Shown here: positions 3,742-52,770 of the stretch, piece by piece | Layout: each line of letters starts with the position of its first letter | Numbering within the stretch: the first letter of the stretch is position 1 | Assembly: GCA_022925895.1 (NCBI GenBank) | Contig: JAKSYS010000059.1 | Coordinates: 1-64,000, forward strand | Origin: Fragilaria crotonensis | Taxonomy: Eukaryota; Bacillariophyta; Fragilariophyceae; Fragilariales; Fragilariaceae | DNA length: 64,000 bases | Direction: 5' to 3' | Program-made: the position numbers and the translations under genes | Notes under the pieces: model-generated | Told to the model about the DNA's origin: nothing | Databases searched by the model: none | The model's input: the letters and a program-made list of their open reading frames with translations, nothing else

Positions 3742-6255
3742 ATGGAGATGACGACGCTACTTGGGAGATATTCTCAGCAGCAAGGTCTATACGGAAATGA
3801 ACAAGGTTGATTGAGTAATGCAACACCCAAGACATGGGGCTTTTTGAAGCAGCAATTTGGGAACCTGATTGGCGATTCTTCCTTTTGTGCTGGATTGTCA
3901 TCGAGAGTTCGAGTTTACAGAGTGATTGAGAGTGGCCTCGTTGTGCTGAACATCAGTAAATCTCTGCCCACAGCTATTCGTCACGGTCCACTTGAACTCG
4001 GCGGTTTGGCCCTTTATGATCTCCGGACCGAAATCGGAATTGAGAACATCAAGTTTCTTCGTGATGCTATATTTGCCAATTCATCTGCTGGCAAGTTGAT
4101 ACTTTTAAATCTTCAGTATCATCAATTGGAGGCTGGGATAGCGGAACCGTTGCTTGAGCAACCAACAGTCCCCGTACCGTACCTGACTCCGTCGTGGCTC
4201 CTCTCCGTTCGGAAGTTTTTGGCAAAACACAATATGTCAATCACATTGACAGAGCAACCAACCATTCAGAAAACAAGTCATCTGGATCAATTCATCATGC
4301 AACCCGAACACTTGAAACGGTATAGCCTCATTCAACAAACGGATCTGAATCTTGTTCGAATATACTTGCAAGTCAATACTCTTGCAGACATGATAGACAC
4401 GTCCCAACCAAATAAGATATCGCTCTCCTATCTCGACGGCCACAGGCCTCCGCAATGGGTGGAGACTCTTCGGTGGCCTCGTCAGGCTCCACCATCTCCC
4501 TCGAAACGCAGACTATGGAAAAGGTTTATCGTGTCGTCATATTTACGGTACATACCATACTGGAAACAAACACCAATTTGTGTCACGCCTGATGTACCTC
4601 GATCCGTCTTCCTTGAAGTCTCTCCACCAAATCACAATCCAGAGATCGGTCGCTCGATGACGTTACAAGAATATTTGCAGACATTGCCTCGAACCCAACG
4701 TCGAATGGTTTCGGCTGTGGAGCAAGTTGCCACCGACGTCCAAGTTTGGAGGGCATTTCGTTCACGGGAGCGTTTACACATAGCCTCTGACGGAGGGCTT
4801 CATGAACAGCATGGCACGTTTGGATGGGTACTTGCCACTTCAAAACACATCCTATTTAAATGTGGCGGACCGGTTGACGGCCCATTTGACACCGTTAATT
4901 CAACTCGGAGCGAGTTATGTGGTTTCGCTTCTTCCCTCCTCCTAATAGCGTCAGTCGCTCGGAATTGGGGGTTACGGCACCGCTGCACTTTCAGATGGCT
5001 CACTGATAGTCGATCTGCTTTGGCTAAGGTATATAAAACGAATCGACGTGGTTGCAGTTCGAGTCGCCAAACTTTCGATTCTGATCTTCTCTCCATGATA
5101 CGAAGTCTATTGATCGAAATACGTCGAGTCGTCGCTTTTCGGTGGGTCAAAGGACATCAAGACTCTTTAAACTCTTATGACCAATTGCCAAGGGAAGCAC
5201 GCCTAAATATCGACGCAGATTATCTTGCTACTCGCTATCGTCTACGTGGGAAGTTGAAATCTACTCCCAAGGTCGACCATCACCCATCACAGCGGATATC
5301 AATCTCTATTTTGGGTACCAGGCTTACGGCTCAATATGATGAGTGCATTCGTTACCATATAAACGGATACCACATGAAGCAGTACATGCAAGAGCGCAAG
5401 CATTGGGATGATAATACATGGCGAATGATCGACTTTGGAAGTTTTGGACAGCATTTTAAACAATTGGCTCCGGCGCAGCAAACACGGCATATGAAGTTGG
5501 TCCATGACCAGTTACCTCTCGGCAAACGCCGGTACACGATTTCTCAGAGTCAAGACGAAGCCTTGAAGAAATGCCCGTGTTGTATGGTGGCTGACGAGGA
5601 TCCTCATCATCTCCTGCGATGTCAGTCAAATTCTTTCATGGCCCCTGGACTATTATCATTACGTCGTTTCAACACCGAGGGGTCTCATCCCTTTGGTCGA
5701 ATTCTCGCCGATGGTATACAGTACTGGATCAACACTGGCACATCAGATTATCGCATGGACTTATCGGATTATCCACTTCATATGAGGGATACCATTGCGC
5801 GAATCTTATTGGAGCAAGAACGGATCGGATGGGACAACGCATTGAAAGGTTTCTTAAGCACTTCCTGGATGGATCTCGCATCACTTCGGTATGAGGATAC
5901 ACGGGTGGATCGCACCGCTGGTGCAAAGTGTATCCGTCGAAGCCTTCAAGCCCTATACTCGTATACCACCGGCGTGTGGAAGACACGGAATGTTGCCCTT
6001 CACGACTCAGAGAATGTCCTCCATCGACGGTTACAGTCAACTATGTACGACACTATCGTATATTTGCATCAACATCCTGACCACCTGTGTTTTGATGATC
6101 GGTACTTGTGCGACATGTCTTTGGAAAAGCTACTTCGGAGTTCACCGTCTACCCAGCGACGATGGATAAAAAGGATGAAAGATTCAAGAGCGTTGCACAC
6201 GAGACTCGGTGAACGACAAACTTTGATCACCTCCTTTTTTAACATGGCAACATGA
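3742..6255 (+). pseudogene. 5'-truncated retroelement ORF with RNase H domain
   Basis: An open frame of about 814 codons runs from 3811 to 6255. It is preceded in frame by an ATG at 3742 and a TGA at 3808, and has no good ATG at its own 5' end. The N-terminal part contains a 'PLELGGLALYDL'-type segment like that following the reverse-transcriptase domain of non-LTR-like elements. An RNase H domain follows, with all four acidic positions: D in SDGG (about 4789), E in RSELCG (about 4912), D in TDSRSA (about 5003) and D in NIDADYLA (about 5215). A Cys/His cluster CPCC...HHLLRC lies at about 5571-5625. The reverse-transcriptase domain itself is missing. I read it as a truncated, probably dead copy; a domesticated RNase H gene is the less likely alternative. 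Confidence 0.65.
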
Positions 6256-12980: not shown

Positions 12981-13761
12981 AAGAGAACAAAACAGGGGTT
13001 GGTTACAGAATAATCGGTAGGTGGGTGCTGTAGTAACGCAAAATGGCAACAGACAGAGAGCAAACAAGAGCAAAACAGAACAACAGCAACAAGAGAAACA
13101 AAAGCAGCAAGGAGAGCAAGAACAACAAGAGAAACAAGAATGACAGGGAGACAAAGTGCCGTACCATCGTGGTTGTGAAATATCAAAATTATGAGTTTTG
13201 TGTGAGTAAACTTGAATCCACTACTGGTACCCTGTTATATACACATCTAGACACGATCATTTTTATTTCTATTCAAACAAATGTGGCGCTGATTTATGTT
13301 CCTTATCTAGAACGTAGTTTTGCACAAGAGGTGGTTTGAAAAGTGGGCGCTGAGAAAATCAAAGATAAAGATTCCGTACAAGTTAAATTCCGCAACAAAA
13401 GTGCTGAAAAGTGCTGACGTCAAATTGGTGAAACCTAATCGGACCCGTACGATTGTACCGTAGAGTGGGTGTGTCTGTTCAATTCCGCAAATTTTGTTTA
13501 ATACGTAGGACTAGTACGACTCGCCGTGTAGATATGTTCTGCGCTACGTAGGGTTGTGTAGAATGCAGTGAGCTGCCACGTGATCCTGCACTACGCAACT
13601 ACCGGGTACTGACGGTGTGACGTAAACTTTTTCCGTCGCAAGATCCATGTCTGAGAAGCCAGGTTCATAGTTCTGACAGCGATTTTCGTTACTTCCAAAT
13701 CCCGCAAAACGCTTGACGCGCAGTCCCTCATCATAAGCGAATGATACCTCGAGACCTTACC

Positions 13762-16518
13762 ATGACGCCGCACATGACAAACAGCACAAGCACAGAATCC
13801 CTTGAAGACGGCTCAACTCGTCTCATTGAAGAGATTCAAGCAGCAGTTCGAAATCACGATTGGGCTACTGTGCACCGCCTGTCGGGGGAATTTCTGGTCT
13901 TGGAGGAGGCCTCACTCGACAGCAGTCTCAGCAGCAGAATTAGCCATTCCGGCTTGTACGATCGGCTAACTGTCCTCCAGGCTGCACCTCTCGTCTATTT
14001 CTGCAGGGACAAGAGAGCTTGGCAGCCATTGCCTCCCATCAATTTTCGGTGGGAAAAGGAAGAGCTAATCAAGGCTTTGGGCGACGCGCGCGAGAAAGGA
14101 AGCATCGATGTTGTCTTTGATGTTGCAACGCCAGACCGATTGAACGCATTTTTAGCAAACGACGAGCGAAGTCCAATTCTACACGTAACAAGTCACGGTA
14201 TCGTTGATGGTGCGTTGGTGTTTGAGGACGGCTTTGGGCTACCGACATTCATGACCGTCGAGGCCCTCAAAAAGTACCATTCGCTTTCATCACTCACCGC
14301 TGTCTTCGTATCGGCGTGCCACTCGCGGTCGATTGGGGAGGCCTTTGTTGCAGCTGGTGTCAAACACGTTATCTGCTGCACGAATGAAGCGAAATTGAAG
14401 GATTCAGCAGCGATCAAGTTCACAGGTGCTTTCTACCGGGCGTTAGCTTATGGGCGGACACTCAAGGATGCCTTCGAGTTGGCCAAGCACCATGTTATGC
14501 ACGAGCCCTCAATCGACGAATCTCATGTTGAGGTGGACAAGTTTATCCTGTTGCCTGAACGCGATGATAACTATCACAACGTTCCGATTTTCTTCCAGCG
14601 ACCTTCTGTTCGACCGCCAGTAGTAGAGACCACACCACGGCGCGTCTTGATCCCGAGTCTTCCAGACCATTTTATGGATCGAAAAGTGGAAGCCTTTGAA
14701 ACAATCAACCACTTTCTAGGAGGATGCGACGTCGTGAACCTGGTGGGTCCGGAGGGAATTGGAAAGACGTCGCTCGCAACTTTTGTTGCGACGTACGTAA
14801 GCGAGCGGCATCACGTAAGCGAGCGGCACTACTTCTCGAATGTTTTGTGCTTTTTGAACGAAGAAATGAAGTCGCTCGAACAAATCCGCCAGGAAATGAA
14901 TGAACTTGTTGATAAGGACAAGCGAACCTTGCTTGTTCTGGACGCTGGTAAATACGAGCACCTCGGGAAAGCTGTCATTACAGAGGAATTACTGAAAATT
15001 TTGAGCCTGCCTACAACTGTGAAGATGCTTATCCTGAATGAAGAAGAGGGAGCTGTCGAGTTTCCGGCCAATGTTCCTGTCAAGAAAGTAGAATTGAAAC
15101 CATTCACGTATCATGCGAATGTCATCCTCTTTGCAACATTGTGTCCCCACGTCAAGGAGAATGCCGATGCTATGGTGCACTCGGTGGATAACCTTGTGAA
15201 TCTTGTTTTCAGGCGAAAATTGTTCATGGAGAAACGTCGAGTAACCGACGCAATGCCAAAACGAGCGGCAGAACTCTTTGAAAAGATGGGAAAGGGGTAT
15301 CCAAAGGAGATAGTACGTATTGCCAAGACCTTGTCGCTTGGCGACTACAAGGCTATCATATGTAAAGCCAAGAAGTATGACGTGATATTGAAGCCCATTG
15401 AAACACGACACGAGCTTGAATGCGCCATCCTTGGGGCCAGCCTCGAGATATTACAAGCAGTGAAGGATGGTTTGATCCATAAGGCCCAAGCGGGACGGGA
15501 CGTACTCCAGGAACTCGAGCGCCAACGGGAGAGTAAGCCCTATGTGATGAACCTGAGACAGGAGTATTATCAAGTCAAAGCAGACCTGCACGGAGCTACG
15601 ATCGCATGGGAAGAAGCCGCTCTTTCCGCCTCCAGGAGTGCAGTCACCGAATTGTACAAGAGGAAGAAAGATCTGTCTGACAAAGTTAAAGACCTCAGCT
15701 TTCGGATAGAACTTGAAGAAAGAGCCATGGCCATCAGCGACGGGGTAGCCTGCGGAGCGTATGGTGATCAGTCGGCCGTATCGCCTGACGACGATGATGT
15801 TGAGGACATCCCCCCTGTGGGACAGATCTTTGTCGTTGACGACAGCGCTGAACCTCCTCGCCCTATCCCGCAGATAGCTGTCCGTCCGCTTCTTACTTAT
15901 CGTATCAAGACCGGACATCCATTCTCCCTCCAAATAAACCACGGCCCCGCGCAGTCCTTTTCCTATCCTTCTTCTGACAAGGCCGCCATTGTGGTGGCTT
16001 CCAACGAAGCGTGCACTGGCGGTCAAGGCATCTTGAGTGCGGTCACGGCTGCCGGCGGACCGGCGTTGCTGCAAGAGGTGAACGAGTTGCCGGTCGCACT
16101 TCACTCCGAATTCGGACGGATCCGGTGTTTGGCCGGCGATGCCAAAATTGTGGGACCCGGGTCGTTTGGTGCCCTCGGGGTGCCATACGTCATGTTTGCC
16201 GTCGGTCCCTGGTTCACTTCAGAAAATGAAGAGCACAGACTGTTGTTTCTGACGGGCGCGTATCGGTCGGCACTGAAGTTAGCGGAGGAGTACAAGCTGG
16301 AGGCGGTCGCGTTCTCTCTGATTGGAAGCAGTTGCCGGGGAGGGAAGAGTTGGAAAGAAACGGTTGCGATTGGCCTGAATACAATCATACGGTTCAAGGG
16401 CTACCCAGAATTGAAGGAGATTCACCTTTACGGGTTCACAGAGGGCGAAGCGACTGAATTGAGGGAACGGAGCATGGAAGCCAACGCTAACTTCGAACAC
16501 ATGGAACAGCTCGAGTGA
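13762..16518 (+). CDS. CHAT protease-like / P-loop NTPase / macro-domain protein, copy 1
   Basis: The intact frame is 918 codons from the ATG at 13762. A further ATG lies seven codons upstream at 13741, but it is GTG in copy 2, whereas 13762 is conserved. Counting from 13741, a CHAT (caspase-like) domain covers about residues 80-285, with the His in LHVTSHG (H152) and the Cys in VFVSACHS (C193). A STAND-type P-loop follows at GPEGIGKTS (336-344, Lys342), with the Walker B-like TLLVLDAG (D401). Next is a charged coiled-coil of about residues 570-680, then an acidic linker. The last part, about 720-905, is a macro domain with ASNEACTGGQGIL, VPYVMFAVGP and GSSCRGGKS loops. The layout suggests a nucleotide-regulated cysteine protease with an ADP-ribose reader, comparable to NLR-type proteins. 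No signal peptide or membrane segment is seen, so it is probably cytosolic or nuclear. The function is inferred. Confidence 0.85.
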   Translation: MTPHMTNSTSTESLEDGSTRLIEEIQAAVRNHDWATVHRLSGEFLVLEEASLDSSLSSRISHSGLYDRLTVLQAAPLVYFCRDKRAWQPLPPINFRWEKEELIKALGDAREKGSIDVVFDVATPDRLNAFLANDERSPILHVTSHGIVDGALVFEDGFGLPTFMTVEALKKYHSLSSLTAVFVSACHSRSIGEAFVAAGVKHVICCTNEAKLKDSAAIKFTGAFYRALAYGRTLKDAFELAKHHVMHEPSIDESHVEVDKFILLPERDDNYHNVPIFFQRPSVRPPVVETTPRRVLIPSLPDHFMDRKVEAFETINHFLGGCDVVNLVGPEGIGKTSLATFVATYVSERHHVSERHYFSNVLCFLNEEMKSLEQIRQEMNELVDKDKRTLLVLDAGKYEHLGKAVITEELLKILSLPTTVKMLILNEEEGAVEFPANVPVKKVELKPFTYHANVILFATLCPHVKENADAMVHSVDNLVNLVFRRKLFMEKRRVTDAMPKRAAELFEKMGKGYPKEIVRIAKTLSLGDYKAIICKAKKYDVILKPIETRHELECAILGASLEILQAVKDGLIHKAQAGRDVLQELERQRESKPYVMNLRQEYYQVKADLHGATIAWEEAALSASRSAVTELYKRKKDLSDKVKDLSFRIELEERAMAISDGVACGAYGDQSAVSPDDDDVEDIPPVGQIFVVDDSAEPPRPIPQIAVRPLLTYRIKTGHPFSLQINHGPAQSFSYPSSDKAAIVVASNEACTGGQGILSAVTAAGGPALLQEVNELPVALHSEFGRIRCLAGDAKIVGPGSFGALGVPYVMFAVGPWFTSENEEHRLLFLTGAYRSALKLAEEYKLEAVAFSLIGSSCRGGKSWKETVAIGLNTIIRFKGYPELKEIHLYGFTEGEATELRERSMEANANFEHMEQLE

Positions 16519-17150
16519 AGTTGAATGTCCACCTTTTGCAATCGCTGTCTGCTTAATTGGCAGTGCGGTGCCGCTCCTACATGAAAACCTTTGCAGTTTT
16601 ATGCACGAATGCAGTGAAGTCCATTTCATCAACTTTCACTACGCTACTGTACCGCTCCTTTTTGAATTCCTTGGCCATTATACACGAAATCACTCAAGTC
16701 CAGTTCATCAACTTCCACTGCGCTGTCGCTCCTACAAGAAAACCTTCGCTATTATATTTGGAAGCACTCAATTCTATTTCATTTGCATGCACTACGTTGT
16801 CCCTCCAACAAAAAAAAAATGGCAGTAATGTTCGAAATCATCACTCAAGTCCATTTCATCAACTTGCACGACGCTGCCACTCCTACGTGAGAAAACATTT
16901 TGCCATGATTCACGAAAGCACTCCAATTATTGTGCGCTCTAAAAAAAACTCCAAGAAAAAGATTGTTTATATAATTGCTGATATCACTGTTGACAATGTG
17001 TTTGTGTAACATTGGAGCAAATAGCATCAGCTATGCCCCCCTCGCTTCCTTGTCCATGCCATGAAGTCATGTCTCGTTCTTGAATCACATTATCGTCGCC
17101 GCCGAGGCGTATTCTGTTCTTTTAGTTTTGGTTTCTTGAAAAATAGAACA
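16519..17150. repeat. 3' flank shared by the two CHAT-macro copies
   Basis: The sequence after the stop codon is clearly homologous to 22444-23040 after copy 2. It consists of degenerate short repeats of 'cgctcctacatgaaaacctttgc...tcatcaactttcactacgct', spaced roughly 60-75 bp, so it is itself repetitive. No coding sequence is supported. Confidence 0.65.
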
Positions 17151-17153
17151 TGA

Positions 17154-17515
17154 TCACTTCAATTCATTACTATTAGAAGTAGTAGTGTTATTCGCGCGAT
17201 GTAAGTCTATCGTCGGAGTTCGTTCTCGCGTACAACCTCGTGCCGTTTCATGTTGTTGGACCGCCCGAACAAGTTGTGCCATGATTGCGTTTTGTTGTTC
17301 TTGATCGGTAGTACTGCTAGGAGTCAGCATGCTGTTTTGCAGTAGGAGCTTCCCGAAGGCTTCCATGGCACCATGAACATCCTTGTTTAGCCAAGGTCGA
17401 TTGTAGGGTAGCGAAATCAAATCATTTATTGCTCTAGTTGTTGCTAGGAGATGGAGACGGTGTTGGATTCAAGGTGGCGTCACCTCGATTCAGTGACGTT
17501 AAACTCTCTGGGTGG
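17154..17515 (-). pseudogene. Duplicated 3' fragment of the 755-aa gene
   Basis: It matches the 3' end of the gene at 23118-25385, covering its last 60 or so codons (NKDVHGAMEAFGKLLLQNSM...AQLVRAVQQHE). Beyond the matched coding part the fragment has lost the parental stop codon, and upstream it has frameshifting indels. It is a by-product of the tandem duplication that copied the CHAT-macro gene and its convergent neighbour's tail. Confidence 0.8.
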
Positions 17516-17700
17516 GAAGGATGCACGCCCCGGGGACTCTGGATGTCCTCTTTTGAGACAAAATGATTCTCAAGATGGCAATGTTATCATCGGAATCACC
17601 CCATGGGGATCAGGTTGTGGCAGGGCGGAGAAGTTTGGTGTGTACGCCAAGGTTTCTTCTTATATTGGTTTCGTTCAAAAAGGTATCTGGGAGATGAGCA
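17505..17700 (+). pseudogene. Trypsin-like protease C-terminal fragment
   Basis: Within a plus-strand open frame, about 60 residues match the end of S1 serine proteases: ARPGDSGCPLL (active-site serine loop, usually GDSGGP), then GITPWGSGCGRAEKFGVYAKVSSYIGFV. The His and Asp parts of the triad are absent. The 5' side of the open frame is the antisense of the neighbouring duplicated fragment. It is therefore a broken gene piece sitting at the breakpoint of the tandem duplication. Confidence 0.65.
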
Positions 17701-19490
17701 GCCATATTTTGCTTTCTTGTGTGATCCATGCTCCTTCAGCAGCTCCCGTCTACTACGGGAACTTGCCTTTCATTGGCCTGTCAGTGCAAAGGAGGGGAAT
17801 GTGTGATCGCAGTCGCCAATACTGGGTTGTCGACGCATGCCAGGGGCGGGACCAGACATGAAATACCTAGGTCTCTCGAAGCGTTCCCGCGATATGAGTC
17901 GAACACGGTAGCCATGAATGTATTTGGCGAAGGACTTGGACTGGAGCTACAAGTCAAAACAATGACAGCAATGGACAATAGAGTCCACATTTAGGGTCAC
18001 CATTGCCTGCTGCATTAGACATGACCTACTACCTGTTACAGTACCGATTCGTTCGCAGCAGCACACGTCCTGATTCTTCATAAGGACAGTCCTGCACTGG
18101 CGTGCTATGTTACATGAATGATGAATGTTGAACGTTGGTCGAGTTGCGTTTGATTGAGTTTCATCTCAATATTGCATATGGCGTTCGCCAAACCTGCATT
18201 CTTCGGCAGAGGGCGATACTGACGAGCGAGGAGGGCATATTTCGTGTCACGAAGTCATCTGTCGTCATCGAATGTCGAAAGTCGAAAGCATCTATTGCGC
18301 CTTGTGCCTTGCAATCTTGCAATGTGGCTTTTGGGGAAGGTCCGGCGAAGGAGCAGTTTACGCAAGTGCTGTGGCTTCGTTTGAAAGTTTGAATTACTAG
18401 TCGCAGGCAAAAGGCAAAAGTGCCGGAACTTCCTCGTTCCTGGTTTGTGGTCTGTGGGTATGACATACAAGGTACAGTATGTACTGTATGTACTGGTACG
18501 AGTACGTGGTCCTCTACGTCATTCGGCGGTATGCATACATACTTGTAGCGGGTGGGTACTTGTAGCGGGTGCGATGTGCGATATGGGGAAATGGCGACAT
18601 GCCGAGGGTGTTGTTCGAATCTCTGATCTCCGCAATGGATACTAATGACATGCGTAGATGGTACATACAGCTCGCCGTACATCAAGTATGTACCGTATCC
18701 GAACTCCGGATAACCGAACGCGTACGAATCCTCGTAGACCTACCATCGAATCTTCAGTCGTGCATTGAGGTTAGATGACTTCAACGATTGCAGTCAAGCA
18801 AATAGCAACGTGGCAGAATGGCAGTATGGCTGATGGGATTTGATTTTGATCAACAACGGAAACGCGACAATGTTCCGGTTCTTGAATCTTTTATCATACA
18901 CTGATGGGAACTCAAATAGAATTCTTTTTTTTTTTTTAATGGAGAAACCAGTGCCGATTGCCGATAGGGCGGCTACGAGAACCGGAGCAGTAATGCTCGG
19001 TGCCTTGGGGATTGTGCGTACATGACATACTCCGAGAACACCGTACAATTAGAATATTGCGGTATTTCCTTTCGCCATTCTAATCGTGAAAAACTATTTA
19101 TTTAGCTCGCTTCACTGTGAAGAAAGATGTGGGCGTACCATTGCTGCGTTGAAACAAAGGCATGTAAACTTTTACCGTCGTACGAAACCACTACGAGCCG
19201 TCTGTTCAAGAATTATTGATGGACGATGTCCGAGAGCATGAGGCCAAGTCTACGTGGCACATTAAAACCTGGTTACAACTCAACGAATCAGTTCTGAGGA
19301 CAAGTATGCAACGGGCGACGCGACGGGCGATAGCGGGAATGAAGACGATAAAGTCGTATTGGACTACTATGCATTAAGGCGGAAGGATCACCTATGGATG
19401 TGCGGTCTAGTCTACTACCAGGCTACGGTCGCACCGTGTGAGTCGTGTGTTCATATATACCGGACATAGCGGCAGCACGTTAAATTAGAA
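17700..19490. other. Intergenic, unique between the duplicated units
   Basis: No gene supported. It contains short GTAC-rich runs near 18470-18510 and an A/T run at 18928-18940. It separates the two copies of the duplication. Confidence 0.45.
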
Positions 19491-19637
19491 TTGGTGTTTT
19501 TTTACCGTCGCCAGATCCGTATGATGGAGGCCAGGATCATAAATTCTGACATGCGTTTCCCGTTCCTATCGAAATACCGCAAAAACCGTGACGGCCCAGT
19601 CCCTCATCGTAAGCGAGTGATACCCCACGTCCTCGCC

Positions 19638-22443
19638 ATGACGCCACGCATGACGATAAGCACAAGGACAGAATCCCTTCGAGACGGCTCAACTCATCTC
19701 ATTGAAGAAATTGAAGAAGCATTTCGAAATCGCGATTGGGCTACTGTGCACCGCATGTCGGGGCAAATGCTGGTTTTGGAGGGCTCTCTGGAATTCTCCT
19801 TGCCGTCATCGGGAAACACCGTCGCATCACGCAGTGACAGTGACAATGATATTAACAACTGCAACCGCAGCAGCAGCAGTCTCAGCAGCAGAATTAGCCA
19901 TTCTGGCTTGTACGATCGGCTAACTGTCCTGCAGGCTGCACCTCTGGTGTATTATTGCATGGAAAGGGAGTTTGGCAGCCATGGGCTCCCATAAACTTTC
20001 AGTGGGAAAAGGAAGAGCTAATCAAGGCTTTGCGCGACGCGCGTGAGACAGGAACCATCGATGTTGTCTTTGATGTTGCAACGCCAGACCGATTTAACGC
20101 ATTTTTAGCAAACGACCAGCGAAGTCCAATTCTACACATATCATGTCACGGCATGGTCGGTGGCAAATTGGTGTTTGAGAACGGATTTGGACAAGAAAAA
20201 TTCATGTCCGTCAAGGACCTCGAAGAATACCATTCGCTTTCATCTCTTTCCGCTGTCTTCGTATCAGCGTGCCATTCGCGGTCAATTGGGGATGCCTTTG
20301 TCAATGCTGGTGTCAAACACGTTATTTGCTGCACGAATGAAGCAAAATTGAAGGATTCGGCAGCGATTGAGTTCACCGGTGCATTCTACCGGGCATTAGC
20401 TCATGGGAACACAATCAAGTATGCCTTTGAGCATGCCAAGGAACAGGTCATGCATTCGCCCTTCATCGATGAATCTCATGTTGAGGTTGACAAGTTTATC
20501 CTGTTGCCTGAACGCGGTGATGACTATCATGACGTTCCGATCTTCTTCCAGCGACCTTCTGTTCGACCGCCAGTAGTAGAGACAACATCACGCCGCGTCT
20601 CAATCCCAAGTCTTCCAAAGGAGTTTATGGATCGAAACCAGGAAGCCTTTGACATTATTAACCGCCTTCGAGAATGTGACGTTGTGAAGTTGGTAGGACC
20701 GGAGGGAATTGGAAAGACATCGCTCGCAACTTTCGTTGCGACGTACGTAAGCGAGCGACACCACTACTCGAATGTTGTTTGTTTTTTGAAAAGCGACACT
20801 GTTGTGTCGCTCGAAGAGATCCGCCAGGAAATGACTGAACTCGTGGACAAGAAAAGAGCACCTTGCTTGTTTTGGACGCTGGTGAATACACCCACCTCGG
20901 GAGATCTGTACTTACAGAGGAACTTCAGAAAATTTTGAAGCTGCCTACAACCGTGAAGATGCTCATCGTGAGTGAACACGAAAGGACTGTCGAATTTCCG
21001 GCCTATGTTCCTGTCAAGACAATAAACTTGAGACCACTGACCTACTATGCGACTGTCACCCTATTTGCAACTATGTGTCCCTACGTTAAGGAGTGCGCTG
21101 ATACTATGGTATACTCGGTGCATGACTTTGTGAATCTTGTTTTCAGGCGAAAATTGTTCATGGAGGAACGCAAAGTAAACAACGCCATGCCAAAACGAGC
21201 GGCAGAACTCTTTAAAAGATTGGGAGCGGGATATCCAAAGGAAGTAGTACGCATTGCCAAGACCTTGTCGCGTGGCCACTATATGGATATCATTAAAAAA
21301 GCCAAGAAATACGACGTGATATTGAAGCCCTTTCATACACGACACGAGATTGAATGCGCCATCATTGGGGCCAAGCTGGAGATTTTACGAGCACGGAAGA
21401 ATGGTTTGATCCATAAGGCTCAAACCGCACGTGATAGGTTGCAGGAACTCGAGCGCCTCCTAGAGAGTAAGCCTTCATTGATAAAACTGAGACAAAGGTA
21501 TGATCGAGTCAAGGCAAAACTGCAAGAAGCCACGATCGCGTGCGAAGAAGCCTACTATTCCGGCCGCAGAAACAACGTACTGTCCAGGACGAAAAGAGAT
21601 CTGTCCAATAAATTAAAGAAGCTCGCGGATCAGATACAGCTTGAACGTGAAGTGGACAACAGCGAGGGTGTTTCTTGCGGAGCGGATGATGATCAATCGG
21701 ACGAAGTGCCTGACGATGACGAAGTTGAGGACATCCCCGCAGTCGGACAGATCTTTGTCGTTGACGACAGCGCTATACCTTCTCGTCCTATCCCACAGAT
21801 AGCGGTGCGTCCGCTTCTTACTTATCGTATCAAGGTCAAGCATCCATTTGTCCTCCAAGTGAACCAAGGCCCCGCGCAGTCCTTTTCCTATCCTTCTTCT
21901 GACAAGGCCGCCATTGTGGTGGCTTCCAACGAAGCGTGCACTGGCGGTCAAGGCATCTTGAGGGCAGTCACAGCTGCCGGTGGAACGGCGTTGAAGCAAG
22001 ACGTGGACGAGTTGCCGGTGGCACTTCACTCCGAATTCGGACGGATCCGGTGTTTGGCCGGCGATGCCAAAATTGTGGGACCCGGGTCGTTTGGTACCCT
22101 CGGGGTGCCATACGTCATGTTTGCCGTCGGTCCCTGGTTCACTTCAGAAAATGAAGAGCACAAACTGTTGTTTCTGACGGGCGCGTATCGGTCGGCACTG
22201 AAGTTAGCGGAGGAGTACAAGCTGGAGGCGGTCGCGTTCTCTCTGATTGGAAGCAGTTGCCGGGGAGGGAAGAGTTGGAAAGAAACGGTTGCGATTGGCC
22301 TGAATACAATCATCCGGTTCAAAGGCTACCCCGAACTGAAGGAGATACACCTTCATGGGTTCACAGAGGACGAAGCGACTGAATTGAGGGAACGGAGCAT
22401 GGAAGCCAACGCTACCTTCGAACACATGGAACAGCTCGAGTGA
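19638..22443 (+). pseudogene. CHAT / P-loop NTPase / macro-domain protein, copy 2 (two frameshifts)
   Basis: This is a paralogue of 13762-16518. The conserved ATG is at 19638. The frame is broken twice by single-base differences relative to copy 1: near 19955-19975, just before the CHAT core, and near 20848-20865, just before the Walker B strand. The three pieces together keep every motif: LHISCHG and VFVSACHS of the CHAT domain, GPEGIGKTS, LVLDAG, the coiled-coil and a complete macro domain ending at the same HMEQLE terminus. Copy 2 also has an extra Ser/Asn-rich insert near 19790-19870. It is either a recent pseudogene or an intact gene with two sequence errors; read support at the two sites would decide. 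Confidence 0.8.
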
Positions 22444-23117
22444 AGTTGAATGACCACCTTTGCAATCGCAGGCTGCTCAATTGGCACGGCGATGCCGTTC
22501 CTACATGAAAAACCTTTGCAGTTTTATGTACGAATGCAGTGAAGTCTATTTCATCAACTGTCACTACGCTACTGTACCGCTCCTACATGAAATCCTTTGC
22601 CATTATATGCGAAATCACTCAAGTCCAGTTCATCAACATCCACTGCGCTGCCGCTCCTACATGAAAACCCTCGCAATTATACACGGATGCACTCAATTCT
22701 ATTTCATTTTCATGCACTACGTTTGTCCCTCCAACATAAAAATACAATGGCAGTCATGTTCGAAATCATCACTCAAGTCCATTTCATCAACGTGCACGAC
22801 GCTGCCACTCCTACACGAGAAAACATTTTGCCATGATTCACGAAAGCACTCCAATTAGTGTGCGCTCTAAAAAAAACTCTTAAGAAAACAATTGTTGATA
22901 TCGTTGTTGACGATGAGTTCGTGTATTATACTTGAGCACATCGTATCAGCAACGTCGTTCTTGGATCACATTATCGTCGTCGACAAGGCGTATTCTGTAC
23001 TTTTAGTTTTTGCTAGAGTGTGATCCTTTTTATGCATTATCATTAGTTTTAGTAGTGTTATTCGCGCGATGTAAAGTCTATAGTCGGTGTTGGTTCTACT
23101 CGCGCATCACCATTTTT

Positions 23118-25385
23118 TTACCGTTCCATTTCATGTTGCTGGACGGCCCGAACAAGTTGTGCCATGATTGCGTTTTGTTGTTCTTGATCGGTAGTATTGC
23201 CAGGTGTCAGCATGCTGTTTTGCAGTAGGAGCTTCCCAAAGGCTTCCATGGCACCATGGACATCCTTGTTGGCCAAGGTCGATTGTAGGGTAGCCAAATC
23301 AATCATTGTATTGTTGTTGCTCGGAGAAGGAGACGCTGTTGGATTCAGCGTGGCGTCACCGCGATTCAGTGACGGTGTTGTTGGCGCTTCCGCAGTCTTC
23401 ACCACTTCAATGTCCAAACCCAAGGTGGGCGATTCCAAGTGTGCTTCTGGAATTGGCGCCACACCACCACTATAATTTGCATGATTATTGCTGTAGCTGC
23501 TTCGACGAAATGTGGGAGAAACAAAGGATGTTGGAGATCCAAAGAAGGCCGAGTCCACCGATGATGCGGCAGAAGATGAATCACTCCGAAAACTCATTTG
23601 AGTTTGCCACAGTTCCATGGGAAGGTGGTGGTGTTCTTGTTCTTCTTGATCGTCATTGTCAAACGCATCTATATCAAGTGTATCGTCGAGTTGTCGTTGA
23701 GTCATGATCACGGAAGACGAGGAGTAAATTTCGGCATTGGTAGATTCGGCTTCCGACGCTCCTCGTTGGAGTGCCTTTAAGAGGCGCCGCTCGTGTTGAT
23801 CAGGTGTCTGGTGCAAGGCTGATGTTGATCGAGCGGCGTACGGTGAAGTGAGTGCCGCTGCTTCAGATTTGACTTCAATTGACTTGTACTTGCTCTTTGG
23901 CGACGATGACGATTTCGAGGATCGTTTCTTCTTCTTTTTCTTGCTGGGCGCCAAAGGATCTGATTTTTTCATCAATTTTGTCACTTTCGGATTAAGAAGA
24001 ATGGGCTTGGCAATCTGGCTGCAAAATTTGGCCGTATATCCCTTGGGGATGGCCACGAGAACTTCACCTCGAATAATCTTTGCGCATGACACATGTTGTG
24101 ACGTTGGCGACGCGGCACTAGCCATCATGTCAACATCCAGAGTTTGGCCGTCGAGTCGGCACATTCCAATGTAGGTTTGGGTGGCCAATGCCGGTTCTGT
24201 GGCGTTGGGGGGTATGCATTGTATCAAATGGTGGACCGTCGTTTCGAGTGGGGCGTAAAAGACTTGAATGATCTCGAAAATTTTCTTTTTCGGAGCAACG
24301 AGCAGTATGAATATTTTGAAGCTAGCAGACGACGATGGTGAGCTGGTGATGGGAATGGAAGAAGGAGAGCGTTGTTGCAGTTGCTGTTGTTCAACTGTGA
24401 CATTGGGACGTGTCTTGAACTGAAGTTTCTTCGATTTTGAGGCCTGACGGTGCAGTGGTGACATGGCCGCCTTGCCTTCTGTGAGAGGGTATTGGATGCC
24501 CTCCAGAGGTGCATCGAGGGGACGGGAGTTGACAAGGTAACGGCCCTGTGCCGTAGGTTCGTGAAGAAATCGTTCAACGGAATCGTTGACTGGTTCGTCC
24601 TCTTCTTCATCTTCCTCCAAGATGGTGTCTCCGTTCATACGATTCGCCTGTTGTTGCAGTTTGAGTTGCCACAACTCCTGACCATCATCGTCGTGGTCGC
24701 TGTCGTTTTTAGGTTTGACGATATGTTTCCTTTTTTGTAGAAAGGGATCCATGGGAGAAAGAGGAATGTCTCCTTCGGGAATTTGATAATTGGTGCGTTC
24801 AATTCCGATTCGGTTCGAATCGGCACTGTTCACCGACTCGTCATCCTCCTCAGAATAACTTGGAGCAGATATACCTAGACGTTGGGGCTCTTGTTGCATC
24901 TGTTCCTGAATTGGAGACGGAGTAGGTTGTAATGCAGATTTTGCTTCCTCATCAGCATCATCGTCCTCATCCTCATCCTCATCATCATGGTCCAATTCCT
25001 GTGAATCACGGGACCTCCCAAATCCCTTGTTCTTCTTTGTTTTAATACTCTTCTCTGAAGGACTCTTGTTGTCTTCTCCAAACAACGCTCGTGAACTCGA
25101 GAGGGCGAATGACGCAAATATGCCTAGCGGTGACGCCGACGGATTGTAGTAGTTGTTCGAGTTGCCATTGAAATTGTCGTTGTCATCCCCTGGTGATACG
25201 AACGACGACGTTGTGGCCATGGTTCCAGGCGTCGCGGCTCCGTACTCGAGTCGAGATGAGGAAGTGGAGCTCTTATTGTCCCTGGATAGATTTCCGAGTA
25301 TGCCATTTTCAATGGAAACCGTTTTGGGAATGGGAGACGAGAACGACGACGGTGGTAATTCTTGTTTTTGTTCCTGCTGTAACAT
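23118..25385 (-). CDS. Conserved hypothetical protein, 755 aa
   Basis: A single-exon open frame starting MLQQEQKQELPPSS. Most of the protein is low-complexity and probably disordered: Ser/Asn-rich at the start, an Asp/Glu run around residues 130-150, then Gln-rich segments. One ordered block lies at about residues 355-465 (FKIFILLVAPKKKIFEIIQV ... CAKIIRGEVLVAIPKGYTA). It resembles uncharacterised diatom proteins from memory, but I know no function for it. It is followed by a basic KKKKKKRSSKSS stretch that could be a nuclear localisation signal. The C-terminus (KDVHGAMEAFGKLLLQN) is helical. The gene is convergent with copy 2 of the CHAT-macro gene, and its 3' end was copied to 17154-17515. 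Confidence 0.8.
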   Translation of the reverse strand: MLQQEQKQELPPSSFSSPIPKTVSIENGILGNLSRDNKSSTSSSRLEYGAATPGTMATTSSFVSPGDDNDNFNGNSNNYYNPSASPLGIFASFALSSSRALFGEDNKSPSEKSIKTKKNKGFGRSRDSQELDHDDEDEDEDDDADEEAKSALQPTPSPIQEQMQQEPQRLGISAPSYSEEDDESVNSADSNRIGIERTNYQIPEGDIPLSPMDPFLQKRKHIVKPKNDSDHDDDGQELWQLKLQQQANRMNGDTILEEDEEEDEPVNDSVERFLHEPTAQGRYLVNSRPLDAPLEGIQYPLTEGKAAMSPLHRQASKSKKLQFKTRPNVTVEQQQLQQRSPSSIPITSSPSSSASFKIFILLVAPKKKIFEIIQVFYAPLETTVHHLIQCIPPNATEPALATQTYIGMCRLDGQTLDVDMMASAASPTSQHVSCAKIIRGEVLVAIPKGYTAKFCSQIAKPILLNPKVTKLMKKSDPLAPSKKKKKKRSSKSSSSPKSKYKSIEVKSEAAALTSPYAARSTSALHQTPDQHERRLLKALQRGASEAESTNAEIYSSSSVIMTQRQLDDTLDIDAFDNDDQEEQEHHHLPMELWQTQMSFRSDSSSAASSVDSAFFGSPTSFVSPTFRRSSYSNNHANYSGGVAPIPEAHLESPTLGLDIEVVKTAEAPTTPSLNRGDATLNPTASPSPSNNNTMIDLATLQSTLANKDVHGAMEAFGKLLLQNSMLTPGNTTDQEQQNAIMAQLVRAVQQHEMER

Positions 25386-29324: not shown

Positions 29325-31954
29325 TCAATTCTTGCTCTCGGCCAATGTTGATAGGTGTCTCGTTGTGCCATCAGCAGGTAAGTAGTTCAGGATACCATTC
29401 CAAATACGATCGGGATAGCTGGCACCGAACGGAAACTTGTTTCCATTGCTTCTGATAATTTTCAAAGAAGCATCCTCGGCTGTGACTTCGCCGTTAGTAT
29501 AACGCATGGAACTTTCACCGAGTGTTATGTAGAACGAGTACGTTTCGCCAGCATTGATGGTAACAGGATCCACATCCTTCTGGGGAATTGGAGTGGGATT
29601 TGGAGATCCCTTGCCCACTACCACGGTGTCAGCAATTTTCGTCCAGGCCGAGGCATCCCTTTCAAAACCCACATAGCTCCCCTTCTTGACGTACACGAAA
29701 GCGTGGACGCTTCCCGTGCTATAGGTGTGGATGTCAAATGAGTTCACCACAATGTTCTTCGAAGCCAACACCTCAATCATATTTCCAGCCTGACCATTGC
29801 CTCCGGCAAATGTGGTAGTCAGCTGCAGCTGCGCGTTATCGGCTGCTGATCCTGATGTCGTTCTCGTAGTGAAGGATCTTGTAGTGGTGAGTGCACTGGC
29901 TGACTTTCGGTAGTAGACAATACCGTTCCAGGCGCGGAGTGGGAAGTCTGCGCCAAAGAGATATTGCTTGGCATATCCATTCCTAATCGTCAAGTCAGAA
30001 TTGGATACTAGGGTTGTCCCATATGTTCTGCCCGCCGAGTATCGATTCAGGTTCGTGCCTTCAGTGAAAGTTACGTAGAAAGACCGAATAGTGCCTGCCT
30101 TGATAAGCACGGGGGAGAAAGTACCCTCCGGTAACATGCTGGGGCTGCCCATTCCGTTGGTTCCAAATGTGGCGGTTCCGATCTTCACCCATTTGGAAGG
30201 AGTTGACTGGGTACCAAGAAATCTTCCAAGAGAAATCTTCCTATACACTTCGACCGTCACAGTGGACGCTGAAGTAGCGTGCACGGCGAAGTTGGTAATA
30301 AAAACGTCCTTCGTAGCCCTAATATCGAACATGTTTCCGGCGGCACCGATGAATCCTCCCGCAAAGGTTGTAGATAAGGAAAGGGAGGTTGATGGCCCCG
30401 GATTGGTGACTGAAACAGTAGGTGCTGGTGTTGGAATCGTCGGTGGCGGTGCTGGAGGCGAAGTAGGAGGGGGTGCCGGAGGCGACGTAGGAGGCGGATT
30501 AACTGGAATGGACTGCCGATAGTTTGCATAGGCGGAAAGGTTGTTTCGGATCTGTTGCGCGTTGTTAGCTCGGGATGATCCAAGGGTTCTGCCGTTGTAG
30601 TTGATGTTCGGATTCGAAAAATATTGAATGCGAGGACAGCTTGGACTGCAGTCATATGCCAAGATAGAGCGGAATTGTGCTGAGGGATCCTGATACCCAT
30701 AGTTGCTTCCGCCAGAATCACCACCGGCATTCGCCAGATCGTGGTTGCATCCCATGTTGTGGCCAATCTCATGAGCAAAAGAGTAGTAACCTGTGGCACA
30801 GCTCCACTGCACAACAGAAAAGGCATCACCAGCAGTCGGGGTTGATGGCATATACCCTATACCACAGTACGACCCGGTGTCCACAAGCATGGTGACGAAA
30901 TCAGCACCATATTGGTCTCGCATGGCGTGCACGTAGTCAAGTTGGCCATCGCCATTGTCGTGGAGGAAACGAAGAGTGGCATCCCAAAAAATGGCGTAAT
31001 CGTTGAATGCAGATTCGAAGTGGGTTTTGACCAATCGGAATTTGGTTGGGATGCCGGAGAGTTCATACGCTCTGTTGGTTTCTGCCACGGCCAGAGAGAT
31101 GACTCCTTCAATCTTGGCAAGGTTTTGGGGAGTGGCAGCACATGTCCCGCCGGTACCTAATCCGGCTGCAGAGCACATGGCTCCTTTAGTGTAGAGCACC
31201 TATCGAAGGGAAGCAAAAGGAGTTAGAACAATCATCCATGTTAACATTAGGCCAAATCATATAATAACAAGTTGTGAGGACTTACCATGATATCAAGTTC
31301 ACTCGAACTATCCAAACGTCTCAAGTTACGACGTCCACGGCGTCCTCCGTCGGGCAATCCATCGATTTCGTCGATCGTATCCGGGTCAACATCATTGTCG
31401 CCTTCCACATCAGTTACTGGTCCTTCTAATTCCCTATCGAACGACTGCCTGACTTCCTCAGCAACGACATTTCCGTCTGCCAATGTACGAATTTGATAAA
31501 CTGTGCCATTCTTTTGCATCGTTCCAGTCGTCACCGTTTCCCCCCATCGGGTCTTTGTCTTGACCATGGTGAGGTGGTTGCCGGTGGTCTCGTCCATACC
31601 AAACCATGAATCAAAAGGATCTTGCTTTCGATCATCCCGTCTCATCCTCAATGTCTGTGAGTCTTCATCACTCATTAGCTGGACGTCAACATCATCTTCA
31701 TCGTCGTCAAGAAGCAACTCTCTCAAATCAACAATGGACTTTCGCCTTTTGATGTTTCCATCGGCGTCCATCACATCTTCGGGCTCTCCCGTGGGCTGGA
31801 TCTTGCGGCGGAAAGATCGGCCTGCCTTTTTGCGTTGGACACGGAGCTGGCGATTCTCATCACTGTCGCTCTCATCTTTTGGGGACTCTTTCACTGCCGA
31901 AACACATGATGATATTGTCAAGGCGAGGAGGAGAAGGCATGATACGAGCTTCAT
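29325..31954 (-). CDS. Secreted reprolysin-like zinc metalloprotease 1
   Basis: Two exons on the minus strand: 31954-31286 and 31199-29325, joined over an 86-bp GT-AG intron (gtaagt...tcgatag); about 847 aa. The start ATG at 31954 gives the signal peptide MKLVSCLLLLALTISSCVSA, which the two paralogues also have. An acidic and basic prodomain ends in a dibasic-rich stretch (GRRGRRNLRR) just before the catalytic domain. The catalytic domain begins DIMVLYTKGA, with the zinc motif HEIGHNMGCNHD at about residue 366. The Met-turn position reads SILAYDC, with Leu in place of Met. A Pro/Thr linker is followed by two related beta-rich C-terminal domains (each beginning TTFAGG...GAAGNM / GQAGNM). It is probably an extracellular endopeptidase activated by prodomain removal. 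Confidence 0.85.
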
Positions 31955-33282: not shown

Positions 33283-36200
33283 TCAGCATTTTTCTTCCGT
33301 TACGACATCACTCGCAGTTTCGTCGGTCGCCGATAGGTGCCTGACAGTTCCAACAGCTGGAGCATACCTCAAGTTACCATTCCAAATGCGATCGACGTAG
33401 TTCACTCCGAACGGATACTTGTTTCCATTACTCCTCACGAACTTCAACGAGTCGTCCCCAGCCGTGACCACCCCGTTAGTGTACTTTATAGAAGGGTCGG
33501 TCAGCGTGATGTAGAAGGAGAAAGTTTCGCCGGCTCTGATGGAAACTGGTTTCACTTTATCACTGGGGATTGGAGTGGGATTTGGAGATCCCTTGCCCAC
33601 CACCCACGTGTCGACAATGTTTGTCCAGGCTGACGGGTTTGTTTCAAATCCAACGTAGCTTCCCTTCATGAAATACACGTAGGCGTGGACGCTTGATGTG
33701 TTAGCGGTGTGGATGTCAAATGCGTTCACAACGATATCCTTCAACGCTTGAATCTCAATCATATTTCCTGCCTGACCATTACCTCCTGCGAAGGTTGTAG
33801 TCACAACCTTTTGTACGCCCCCCTGTGGCGCTGCTATTGAAGTTGATGCCCGTGTTGTTGGTGCCCGGGTTGGTGGCAGTGTTGTTGGTGCCCGAGTTGT
33901 TGGTACGCTTGTTGGAGGCAATGTTAGTGGCAATGTTGTTGGTGCCCGAGTTGTTGGTACGCGTGTTGGAGGCAGTGTTAGAGGCAATGTTGTTGGCGCC
34001 CAAGTTGGTGGCAATGTTGTTGGTGCCCGATTTGTTGGTACGCGTGTTGGAGGAGATGTTAGTGGCAGTGTTGTTGGTGCGCGTGTTGGAGGCAGTGTTG
34101 TTGGTGCCCTTGTTGGAGGTGGTGTTAGCGCCAGCGTTGTCGGCGCGCGTGTTGGAGGCAGTGTTAGCGGCAGTGATGTTGGTGCGCGTGTTGGAGGCAA
34201 TGTTGTTGGCGCCCGAGTTATGGGGCCCGGCGTTGGAGGCACAGTCAGCGGCAGCGTTGTTGGTGCTCGTGTTGGAGGGAGCGTTGTTGGTGCTCGTGTT
34301 GGAGGCAGTGTTGTTGGCGCCCGTGTGGGAGGCAGTGTTGTTGGTGGTCGTGTGGGAGGCAGTGTTGTTGGTGGTCGTGTTGGTGGTCGTGTGGGAGGCA
34401 GTGTTGTTGGCAGCCGAGTTGTTGGCAGTGTTGTTGGTGGCCGTGTTGGAGGCAGTGTTGTTGGTGGCCGTGTTGGTAACAGGGTTGGCTTGGGCGTCTG
34501 AAGCGATGTTGCAAGGGTAGTGGAGGATACCCTTTCGTAGTACACAATACCGTTCCAGGCACGAGGGTTGTAGTCTGGGCCAAAAAGATATCCTTTGGCG
34601 TACCCCTGAAGAACTTGCATGTCAGAATTGGCGACCTGGACCGTTCCAATAGCTAAGCCCAACGAATACCGATTGAGGTTGCTTGCTTGGGTGAAGGTAA
34701 TGTAGAAAGCCTGAATGGTGCCCGCCTTGACAAGCACTGGAGCGAAAGTACCCTGTGGCAAGATTGTGGGAGTGAAGGCTGCGCTACTTCCAAAGGTACT
34801 TTGCCCAATCTTAACCCACTGCGAAGGATCGGCCTGAGATCCAACACAGGTTCCGCTTTTCGTGTACACTTCGATCGTTACAACAGATGGTGTTGTGGCG
34901 TGCATTGCGAAGTTGGTAACATACAAGTCTGTTGTTGCTTTGATGTCAATCATGTTTCCTGCGGCGCCAACATACCCTCCTTTAAGATCTGCCACCAATG
35001 ACAGGGTGTTTGATGGCGGAGCAGTTGGACCAGAAACAATTGGTGTCGGAGTAGACACGGGCGAAGTCGTTGTTGGCGGGATAGAGGAAACGGCCTGACG
35101 GTAATTCGCGAAGGCAGCAAGATTGTTTTTGATGACTGCAACATTGTCAGCTTTGGCAGATCCAAGAGGTTTGTCATTGTAGTTGAGGTTCGGACTTGAA
35201 AAGTATTGAATACGAGGACAGCTAGGACTGCAGTCATAGGACAAGATAGAACGGAATAGTGAAGAAGGATCCTGGTACCCATAATTGCTGCCAGCCGTTT
35301 CGCCGCCGGCATGAGGCATATCGTGGTTACAGCCCATGTTGTGACCTATCTCGTGAGCAAAGGAATAGTATCCGGTGGCACAGTTCCATTGCACGACTGA
35401 GAAGGCATCGCCGGCAGTCGGGGTTAATGGTCTATACCCGATACCGCAGAATGACCCGGTGTCCACCATCAAACTGACGAAATCAGCGCCATATTGGTCT
35501 CGCATGGCATGCACATAATCAAGTTGGCCATCGCCATTGTTGCGTAGGTTGCCGAGGGTGACTTCCCAAGCATTGCTGTAGTCGTTGTAGGAAGAATCAA
35601 ACTGGGTCTTGACCAATCGTAGTCTGGTTGGAATGCCAGAGAGTTCGTATGCTTTGTTGGTTTCAGCAACGGCAAGAGTGATGATTCCTTCAATCTTTGC
35701 AAGGTTTTCGGGTGTAGCTGCACATGTGCCTCCAGCACTGAATCCGGCTGCAGAGCACATGGCTCCTTTAGTGTATAGCACCTATCGAAGGGAAGCACAA
35801 GGCGTTAGAACGCTCATCCATACTTACATTTCGAAAAATCATGTCACAAGGACTCACCAGGATATCAAGTTGACTCGAGCTATCCAAACGTCTCAGGCTA
35901 CGGCGTCCACGCCGTCCTCCTCCTGGTAATCCATCGATTTCGTCGATGGTATGCGGGTCAACATCATCATCTCCTTCAACATCAGTCATTGGTCCATCCA
36001 ACTCCGTATCGAACATCTGTTGCTTGACTTCTTCAGCAACAACATTCCCGTCGGCCAAAGTACGAATTTGATACACCGTTCCATTCTTTCCGTACATCGT
36101 TCCAGTTGTCACAGTGTTCCCCCAAGGGGTCGTAGTTTTAACCATGGTAAGATGGTGGCCGGTGGTCTCGTCCCGACCAAACCATGATTCGAAAGGATCT

Positions 36201-52600: not shown

Positions 52601-52770
52601 TGTGATGCTTTATCGCGCATGGCATCAATAAGTTGCCTTCGGGTTGGGAACACAGTCCCTACAGGAAACTCGCTCTCGAACTCACTCTTGATGTGGAGTA
52701 GATTTCCCATCTCTGCATCAGAGTAGAAGAGGTCATCAGCATGATTATGGTCAGTGGTAGCTTCGTCCAT
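49607..52770 (-). pseudogene. MULE transposase (one frameshift)
   Basis: Starts at the ATG at 52770; the product is about 1050 aa once the frame change near 51560-51580 is allowed for. The N-terminal part has a FAR1/WRKY-GCM1-like Cys/His region (SKCGCEFKASF...MHGKGC). The catalytic core follows: SLDGMKRQLN with the first Asp, VIYGDG with the second, and SSVAESNHASY with a candidate Glu. A SWIM zinc finger CSCNVFIAYQLQCRHLFAYH lies at about 50835-50893. Near the C-terminus is a CCHC knuckle CSFCGSTQHTIKRC. The first frame stops at 51448. The second is open upstream with GIQDSCSLLDDIHH, so the lesion is a single base. It is probably inactive as it stands, or carries a sequencing error. Confidence 0.85.

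Follow-up and report, generated by a model that had tools for sequence, protein, structure and literature searches.

The first 64,000 nucleotides of contig JAKSYS010000059.1 of the diatom Fragilaria crotonensis (hereafter the window) contain a gene whose single predicted protein chain almost certainly joins, in this order, a caspase-like CHAT domain, a P-loop domain of divergent STAND type, a linker rich in charged residues and a macro domain (Table 1). As the best overall explanation, to which we give a probability of about 45%, we propose that this protein is an intracellular NLR-like receptor-protease of the diatom, in which the macro domain would serve as the sensor. The receptor-protease logic seems rather probable from the domain layout; an ADP-ribose-type ligand is a tentative proposal drawn from the macro fold. 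At the level of sequence, the parts, their order, their conservation, the kinship with CHAT-STAND proteins, the altered macro cleft, a WWE domain in the same slot of a relative and PARPs in the same genome are all in place.

Reading frame, domain order and the CHAT domain

The initial annotation had proposed one open frame of 918-925 codons in which all parts, from CHAT domain through STAND NTPase and coiled-coil to macro domain, form a single algal protein. The frame is indeed unbroken, with both Pfam domains inside it, and the genome is that of a diatom, with silicon transporters matched at E values as low as 4e-193. The start of the nearest relative, P0001, aligns to Met12 (13774); starting there would give 914 codons. 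No intron was seen in the stretch of the frame that can be aligned to relatives. The proposed order is recovered by profiles for the CHAT, P-loop and macro parts, whereas the coiled-coil is a less certain reading: a crude heptad count does not set the linker apart from the globular domains. The layout is that of an NLR, with an effector, a STAND domain (recognized by hhalign comparison) and a presumed C-terminal sensor. No repeat family (LRR, WD40, TPR or ankyrin) is among the Pfam matches at the C-terminus; a macro domain stands there instead.

The CHAT fold with its predicted His and Cys is well supported. The Pfam match lies above its cut-off, both residues are invariant (Table 1), and profile A4, made from eight macro-less relatives, matches a CHAT chain of known structure, 8tl0_A (E 4.6e-11), whose His and Cys align with those of the profile. 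The 8tl0 protein presumably holds a ligand-reading partner domain within the same chain as its CHAT domain. The likeness to this protein and to SAVED-CHAT proteins lies in the CHAT domain with its aligned His and Cys; the window protein differs in having no SAVED domain among its Pfam matches, and the PADLOC SAVED_CHAT profile reached only 13.5 bits. The PADLOC defence profiles as a whole gave weak matches only, the best at 15.2 bits.

Table 1. Features of the gene and of its tandem copy, in window coordinates.
Feature	Position	Strand	Residues	Remarks
Whole reading frame	13741-16518	+		925 codons counted from first ATG
CHAT (caspase-like) domain, Pfam PF12770	13843-14523	+	35-261	E 1.5e-11, 44.7 bits, cut-off 24
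His152 in LHVTSHG (147-153)	14194-14196	+	152	predicted catalytic His; invariant, 9/9 rows of A3
Cys193 in VFVSACHS (188-195)	14317-14319	+	193	predicted catalytic Cys; invariant, 9/9 rows of A3
Divergent STAND-type (NB-ARC/NACHT-like) P-loop domain	14638-15390	+	300-550	by hhalign comparison
Walker A, GPEGIGKT	14746-14769	+	336-343	whole in window protein
Walker-B-like strand, TLLVLDA	14926-14946	+	396-402	single acidic residue
GKGYP, conserved GxGxP	15289-15303	+	517-521	G517, G519 and P521 invariant in A2
Charged helical/coiled-coil-like linker	15421-15840	+	561-700	about 31% charged, poorly conserved
Macro domain	15898-16485	+	720-915	Pfam PF01661 core at residues 752-868 (15994-16344)
Macro cleft loop 1, IVVASNEACTGGQGILSAVT	15988-16047	+	750-769	unlike MacroD-type NAAN...GGGVDGAI
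Macro cleft loop 2, VAFSLIGSSCRGGK	16306-16347	+	856-869	
Tandem second copy	19620-22443	+		identity 77-78% (two long pieces) and 63-70% (two short pieces)

Relatives and family tree

A search of 5.8 billion proteins, with scoring on the 8000 candidates that shared most words, yielded at least seven relatives among the candidates scored. P0001, P0003, P0004 and P0005 (70, 45, 41 and 39% identical, respectively) carry the Pfam CHAT and Macro domains in the same order; P0002 and P0006 consist of the P-loop part and a macro domain and begin behind the CHAT part, and P0007 is a double macro protein. The wider CHAT-P-loop family (28 matches in an alignment search and 19 in a search with the P0013 core, P0013 included) has members in Cylindrotheca fusiformis, C. 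closterium, a Bacillariaceae metagenome-assembled genome, Phytophthora cactorum and Aphanomyces euteiches, and two relatives, P0035 and P0036, come from MMETSP transcriptomes. Searches by short exact peptide patterns, which are weak evidence of absence, confirmed no relative in viral contigs (queries A2 and P0013) or in prokaryote genomes (A2).

In a midpoint-rooted tree of the CHAT-NTPase core (23 rows, with P0002 and P0006 partial, P0017 on a long branch and P0034 left out), all seven rows with a macro domain lie to one side of a branch supported at 100/100, with no test listed for the two groups, and the WWE-bearing P0013 of Cylindrotheca belongs to a separate ten-row group (100/99). The WWE domain of P0013 lies at residues 1016-1075 (44.7 bits), and P0034, which has no CHAT match, carries one at residues 767-829 (49.9 bits; cut-off 21.1 in both cases). 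WWE domains are described as modules that bind poly(ADP-ribose) in the part of a 2014 survey available to us (PMC4245714). Since the Cylindrotheca fusiformis relative has a WWE domain where the window protein has a macro domain, we infer at least two acquisitions of ADP-ribose-reader folds in the CHAT-STAND family. The CHAT-P-loop core is related to that of oomycete and diatom CHAT-NACHT/AAA_16 proteins (Aphanomyces P0021/P0022, Phytophthora P0048 and Cylindrotheca P0013/P0037); these end in TPR and SAM, in WWE or in nothing above cut-off, but not in a macro domain.

The STAND-type P-loop domain

We read the NTPase domain as a descendant of STAND NTPases, chiefly from profile comparison. In hhalign, the NTPase slice scored 98.0% against the NB-ARC slice of P0025, a protein with an NB-ARC match of its own (38.8 bits, cut-off 23.5), in an alignment that runs from the P-loop through Walker B into the region after it. 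For four more slices, taken from relatives that bear CHAT and have NB-ARC, NACHT or AAA matches, the values were 97.4, 96.3, 99.8 and 98.1%, and three unrelated control slices gave 0.1-0.2%. The conserved GxGxP motif sits at what we take to be the place of the NB-ARC GxP motif. A PDB search with the NTPase slice A6 (8 rows) returned 105 matches at E values up to 10; among the best 60 of the 105, which were inspected, plant NLRs and Apaf-1 appear as weaker matches (Sr35, 0.014; ADR2, 0.015; 7crb, presumably RPP1, 0.043; Apaf-1, 0.11).

Several observations weigh against this assignment and the receptor reading built on it. The HMM comparison that the initial annotation had called for placed CHAT and macro above their Pfam cut-offs and all NB-ARC/NACHT-type families below: no P-loop family passed in the window protein (AAA_16, 19.8 of 32.6 bits; nSTAND3, 17.1 of 27.2; NACHT, 16.3 of 26.7). 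The five positive hhalign slices are not independent evidence, because their source proteins were found with the same family. The slice scored only 24.7% against the one NB-ARC match of the genome (C394, L035:1231-3792; 59.4 bits), which belongs to a long frame of its own whose end looks TPR-like by eye, and 22.7% against an AAA_35 slice. The best PDB matches are other P-loop proteins, namely a designed one (E 0.00035) and Vps4 (0.0028). The Walker-B-like LDA has one acid in place of the two expected of a STAND protein. Finally, of 30 rows, 12 have the Ser/Thr of the P-loop and 18 have lost it; within the seven macro-bearing rows, the Thr persists only in the window protein and P0001. These 30 rows comprise 28 of the 50 found proteins, the window protein and a paralog on contig C230 (P0007, P0015, P0016, P0018-P0032 and P0047-P0050 were left out), and the count was taken by eye, as regular expressions missed some motifs. 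The STAND identity first proposed is thus upheld by profile comparison and not by the Pfam cut-offs. Its supposed role as an ATP-driven switch fares worse: with 18 of the 30 rows lacking this Ser/Thr, neither such switching nor ATP turnover is likely to be general in the CHAT-STAND family.

The same loss would suit a housekeeping CHAT protease built on a pseudo-NTPase scaffold, with no role in immunity or cell death. So would the origin of two CHAT-P-loop relatives in MMETSP transcriptomes, and the C230 paralog (1024 amino acids; L010:7-3078, minus strand), which combines a CHAT score of 20.3 bits, below the cut-off, with a P-loop without GK, a long charged tail and no macro match. In our judgement, however, the broken gene copies and the apparent exchange between tandem copies described below, together with the differing end domains, resemble a conflict gene; we consider a housekeeping role unlikely, although it is the alternative that we take most seriously.

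The macro domain and its cleft

The C-terminal macro domain can be assigned with confidence from its Pfam Macro match (52.2 bits, E 7.4e-14, cut-off 22) and from its solved relatives in the PDB, which are AF1521, MacroD-type proteins including MacroD2, and PARP14. We take the MacroD-type enzyme signature to be NAAN, GGGVD and a SAG[IM]Y-type loop 2. The closest macro protein of the genome outside the gene's own copies, the stand-alone C293 (244 amino acids, 39% identical), has NAAN, GGGVDGAI and SAGMY; in the corresponding places the window protein has VASN, GGQGIL and GSSCRG. The seven fused rows agree closely with one another (VASN, GG[QMV]G[IV]L and G[SA]SCRG in 7/7) and lack the marks of a MacroD hydrolase. 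The domain resembles MacroD-type proteins and AF1521 as a macro domain by sequence, with Asn755 and the GG of loop 1 kept, but it differs from them in the absence of the enzyme motifs and in its fusion to CHAT and P-loop domains.

Over the seven rows, the mean pairwise identity is 0.85 for the cleft loops and 0.63 for the remaining macro domain. Block pairs drawn at random were as highly conserved in 123 of 20000 cases, a figure that describes the loops rather than testing them cleanly because they were chosen by eye. A conserved but altered cleft is what a changed yet still used pocket would look like. With the enzyme signature lost and the cleft loops yet ranking with its most conserved regions, the fused macro domain looks like a reader and not a hydrolase. 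Of the two activities that the initial annotation had allowed, binding or removal of ADP-ribose, removal is accordingly the unlikely one, the enzyme motifs being absent in all seven rows. The AF1521-type Asp, which we assume to contact adenine, is also absent in 7/7 fused rows (GPAQ-type), and the ligand may therefore not be ADP-ribose, a further count against our proposal; because the enzyme-like C293 also lacks this Asp (GSVL), its absence says little either way.

In plant NLRs, integrated domains can act as decoys, and the macro domain could similarly mimic a host ADP-ribose-processing protein, such that a pathogen factor attacking or binding it would trigger the protease. The occurrence of macro and WWE domains in different branches of one family, the loss of enzyme residues with the fold match retained, and the enzyme-like nature of the closest other macro protein, C293, would all be in keeping with a bait. 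Nevertheless, a bait needs no conserved cleft, and the high conservation of the cleft loops makes this explanation unlikely, somewhat below a housekeeping role in our estimate. An active ADP-ribose hydrolase, trimming signals while the CHAT and STAND parts serve only to localize it or are cut off from it, is an improbable reading of the macro domain. The hydrolases AF1521 and MacroD2 do appear among its PDB relatives, and in NCBIfam it scores best with a profile for O-acetyl-ADP-ribose deacetylase, but that match (60.3 bits) is far below the cut-off of 200, and 7/7 rows lack the Asp of GGGVD as well as the first Asn in NAAN and have G[SA]SCRG as loop 2.

Copies of the gene in the genome

The gene lies in a duplicated unit (13628-17498 and 19499-23374). 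The frame of the second copy is broken near 19960 and near 20860, and this copy is either a relic or an assembly error. Between the tandem copies, the ratio of nonsynonymous to synonymous substitution rates (dN/dS) is 0.36 and 0.50 in two in-frame pieces and 0.33-0.52 by domain, as obtained by simple counting with no significance test. Together with the shared CHAT-macro order of P0001, P0003, P0004 and P0005, these ratios speak against a chance juxtaposition of domains. The synonymous rate is 0.09 in the macro part versus 0.31-0.56 elsewhere, and the nucleotide identity of the copies at 16000-16399 is 0.945-0.985; owing to this low synonymous rate and raised identity, the macro end has probably been exchanged between them by gene conversion (window 15800-16500). 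Another copy, C467, is broken near residue 100 and ends ahead of the macro domain; its dN/dS with the window gene is 0.445 in a long piece and 0.623 in a short N-terminal piece. Besides these three and the C230 paralog, queries with P0037 and P0013 detected no CHAT-core locus in the genome, only weak stretches on C471.

That the gene family is in decay, with the window copy perhaps on its way out, also has little in its favour: of the four loci two are broken (the tandem copy twice, and C467 before its macro domain) and one has no macro domain, but the breaks may be assembly errors, the window frame is whole with dN/dS below 1, and relatives at 39-45% identity retain all parts.

Between the two copies (window 17451-17861) is a fragment with GDSGCP and trypsin-like text, as read by eye. 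Elsewhere in the window, three similar clustered frames, at 29325-31199, 33283-35781 and 40305-42254 (minus strand), carry HEIGHNMGCNHD, which we take to be a metalloprotease-type motif, and frames resembling RNase H-bearing retroelements and DNA transposases were recognized by eye at 3811-6255, 49607-52770 and 60796-62163.

Candidate ADP-ribose writers

The genome holds six PARP matches, five of them above cut-off (contigs C89, C41, C843, C328 and C658). Each of these five lies at most 0.5 kb from a WWE match on the same contig and strand, and PARP and WWE share one open frame in 5/5. Three of the frames (L023:1-2373 on C843, L024:1-2469 on C328 and L025:1111-3561, minus strand, on C658) also contain an ANF_receptor match (120.7, 139.6 and 67.4 bits, respectively), and a hydrophobic stretch between the ANF-type region and the PARP domain was read by eye as a membrane span. 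The remaining two loci are possibly cut short at the 5' end. In the available part of its text, a 2010 survey gives no PARPs for P. tricornutum and T. pseudonana (PMC2964712), and that of 2014, likewise available in part, gives at least two for Thalassiosira oceanica; PARPs in a diatom are thus not new, as those of T. oceanica are already in print (PMC4245714). Receptor-type PARPs of the ANF_receptor-PARP-WWE kind are not named in the titles and abstract openings of the literature looked through.

Proposed mechanism

In the receptor-protease that we propose, the C-terminal macro domain would be the sensor, having given up the MacroD-type removal of ADP-ribose, and would read an ADP-ribose-type group that is either protein-bound or a small molecule. 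Reading would change how the helical linker and the STAND-type domain pack, and this repacking would bring CHAT domains together, presumably by oligomerization. The predicted His152/Cys193 protease would then cut a target, and the outcome may be the killing of an infected or damaged cell. That macro reading activates CHAT is our inference. It is a conjecture that the receptor PARPs and the CHAT-macro protein act together. On a larger scale, receptor PARPs might write ADP-ribose in response to a ligand from outside, a signal that CHAT-STAND proteins ending in a macro or WWE domain might read and so start proteolysis or death; such an ADP-ribose-gated caspase-like pathway of diatoms is quite unlikely on present grounds, but if true, it would make both writer and reader single-chain components of a new kind.

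Comparison with known systems

In fungi, NLRs with an N-terminal CHAT domain are encoded next to gasdermins, and in P. anserina a CHAT protease with TPRs activates a gasdermin, according to the available parts of three publications (PMC12881547, PMC9815663, PMC10197012). As excerpted there, these proteins share with the window protein an N-terminal CHAT domain followed by a nucleotide-binding domain, or a CHAT domain with repeats, but the sensors of the fungal CHAT-NLRs are WD40, TPR or ankyrin repeats, whereas the window protein has a single macro domain. The fungal proteases also stand beside gasdermins, and gasdermin, considered as a substrate, gave no match in the diatom genome, nor in the equally silent control genomes, an absence that does not favour the receptor reading. 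Sensor-only macro domains are named in the part of a review available to us (PMC9503650). Comparable, too, are the bacterial EACC2-caspase proteins, for which the accessible part of the description proposes sensing by a variable C-terminal domain, macro included, and activation of the caspase (PMC8195603). These share with the window protein a caspase-type protease with a C-terminal macro domain as the proposed sensing part; as far as that text goes, they differ in being bacterial, in having the EACC2 module ahead of the caspase and in carrying either STAND or macro at the C-terminus rather than both.

A caspase with a C-terminal macro domain is therefore already described in bacteria, in the same partial source (PMC8195603). 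The claim of the initial annotation that no described system has this order holds in so far as no description of a CHAT-STAND-macro order was found in the open-access literature, but its near kinds, the fungal CHAT-NLRs and the bacterial caspases with macro domains, are known. We regard the window protein as a novel form of CHAT-STAND receptor.

Little is understood of how diatoms detect viruses and stress or commit to dying. Genes that combine a caspase-like protease with a STAND-type module and, depending on the branch, with either of two ADP-ribose-reader folds are concrete, testable candidates for sensing and death in diatoms. Our reading would carry the bacterial sensor-caspase idea, as far as its available description goes (PMC8195603), to a eukaryotic alga, with ADP-ribose as a candidate signal. 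Judging from its sequence, the protein may couple the activation of a protease to ADP-ribose signalling in an alga.

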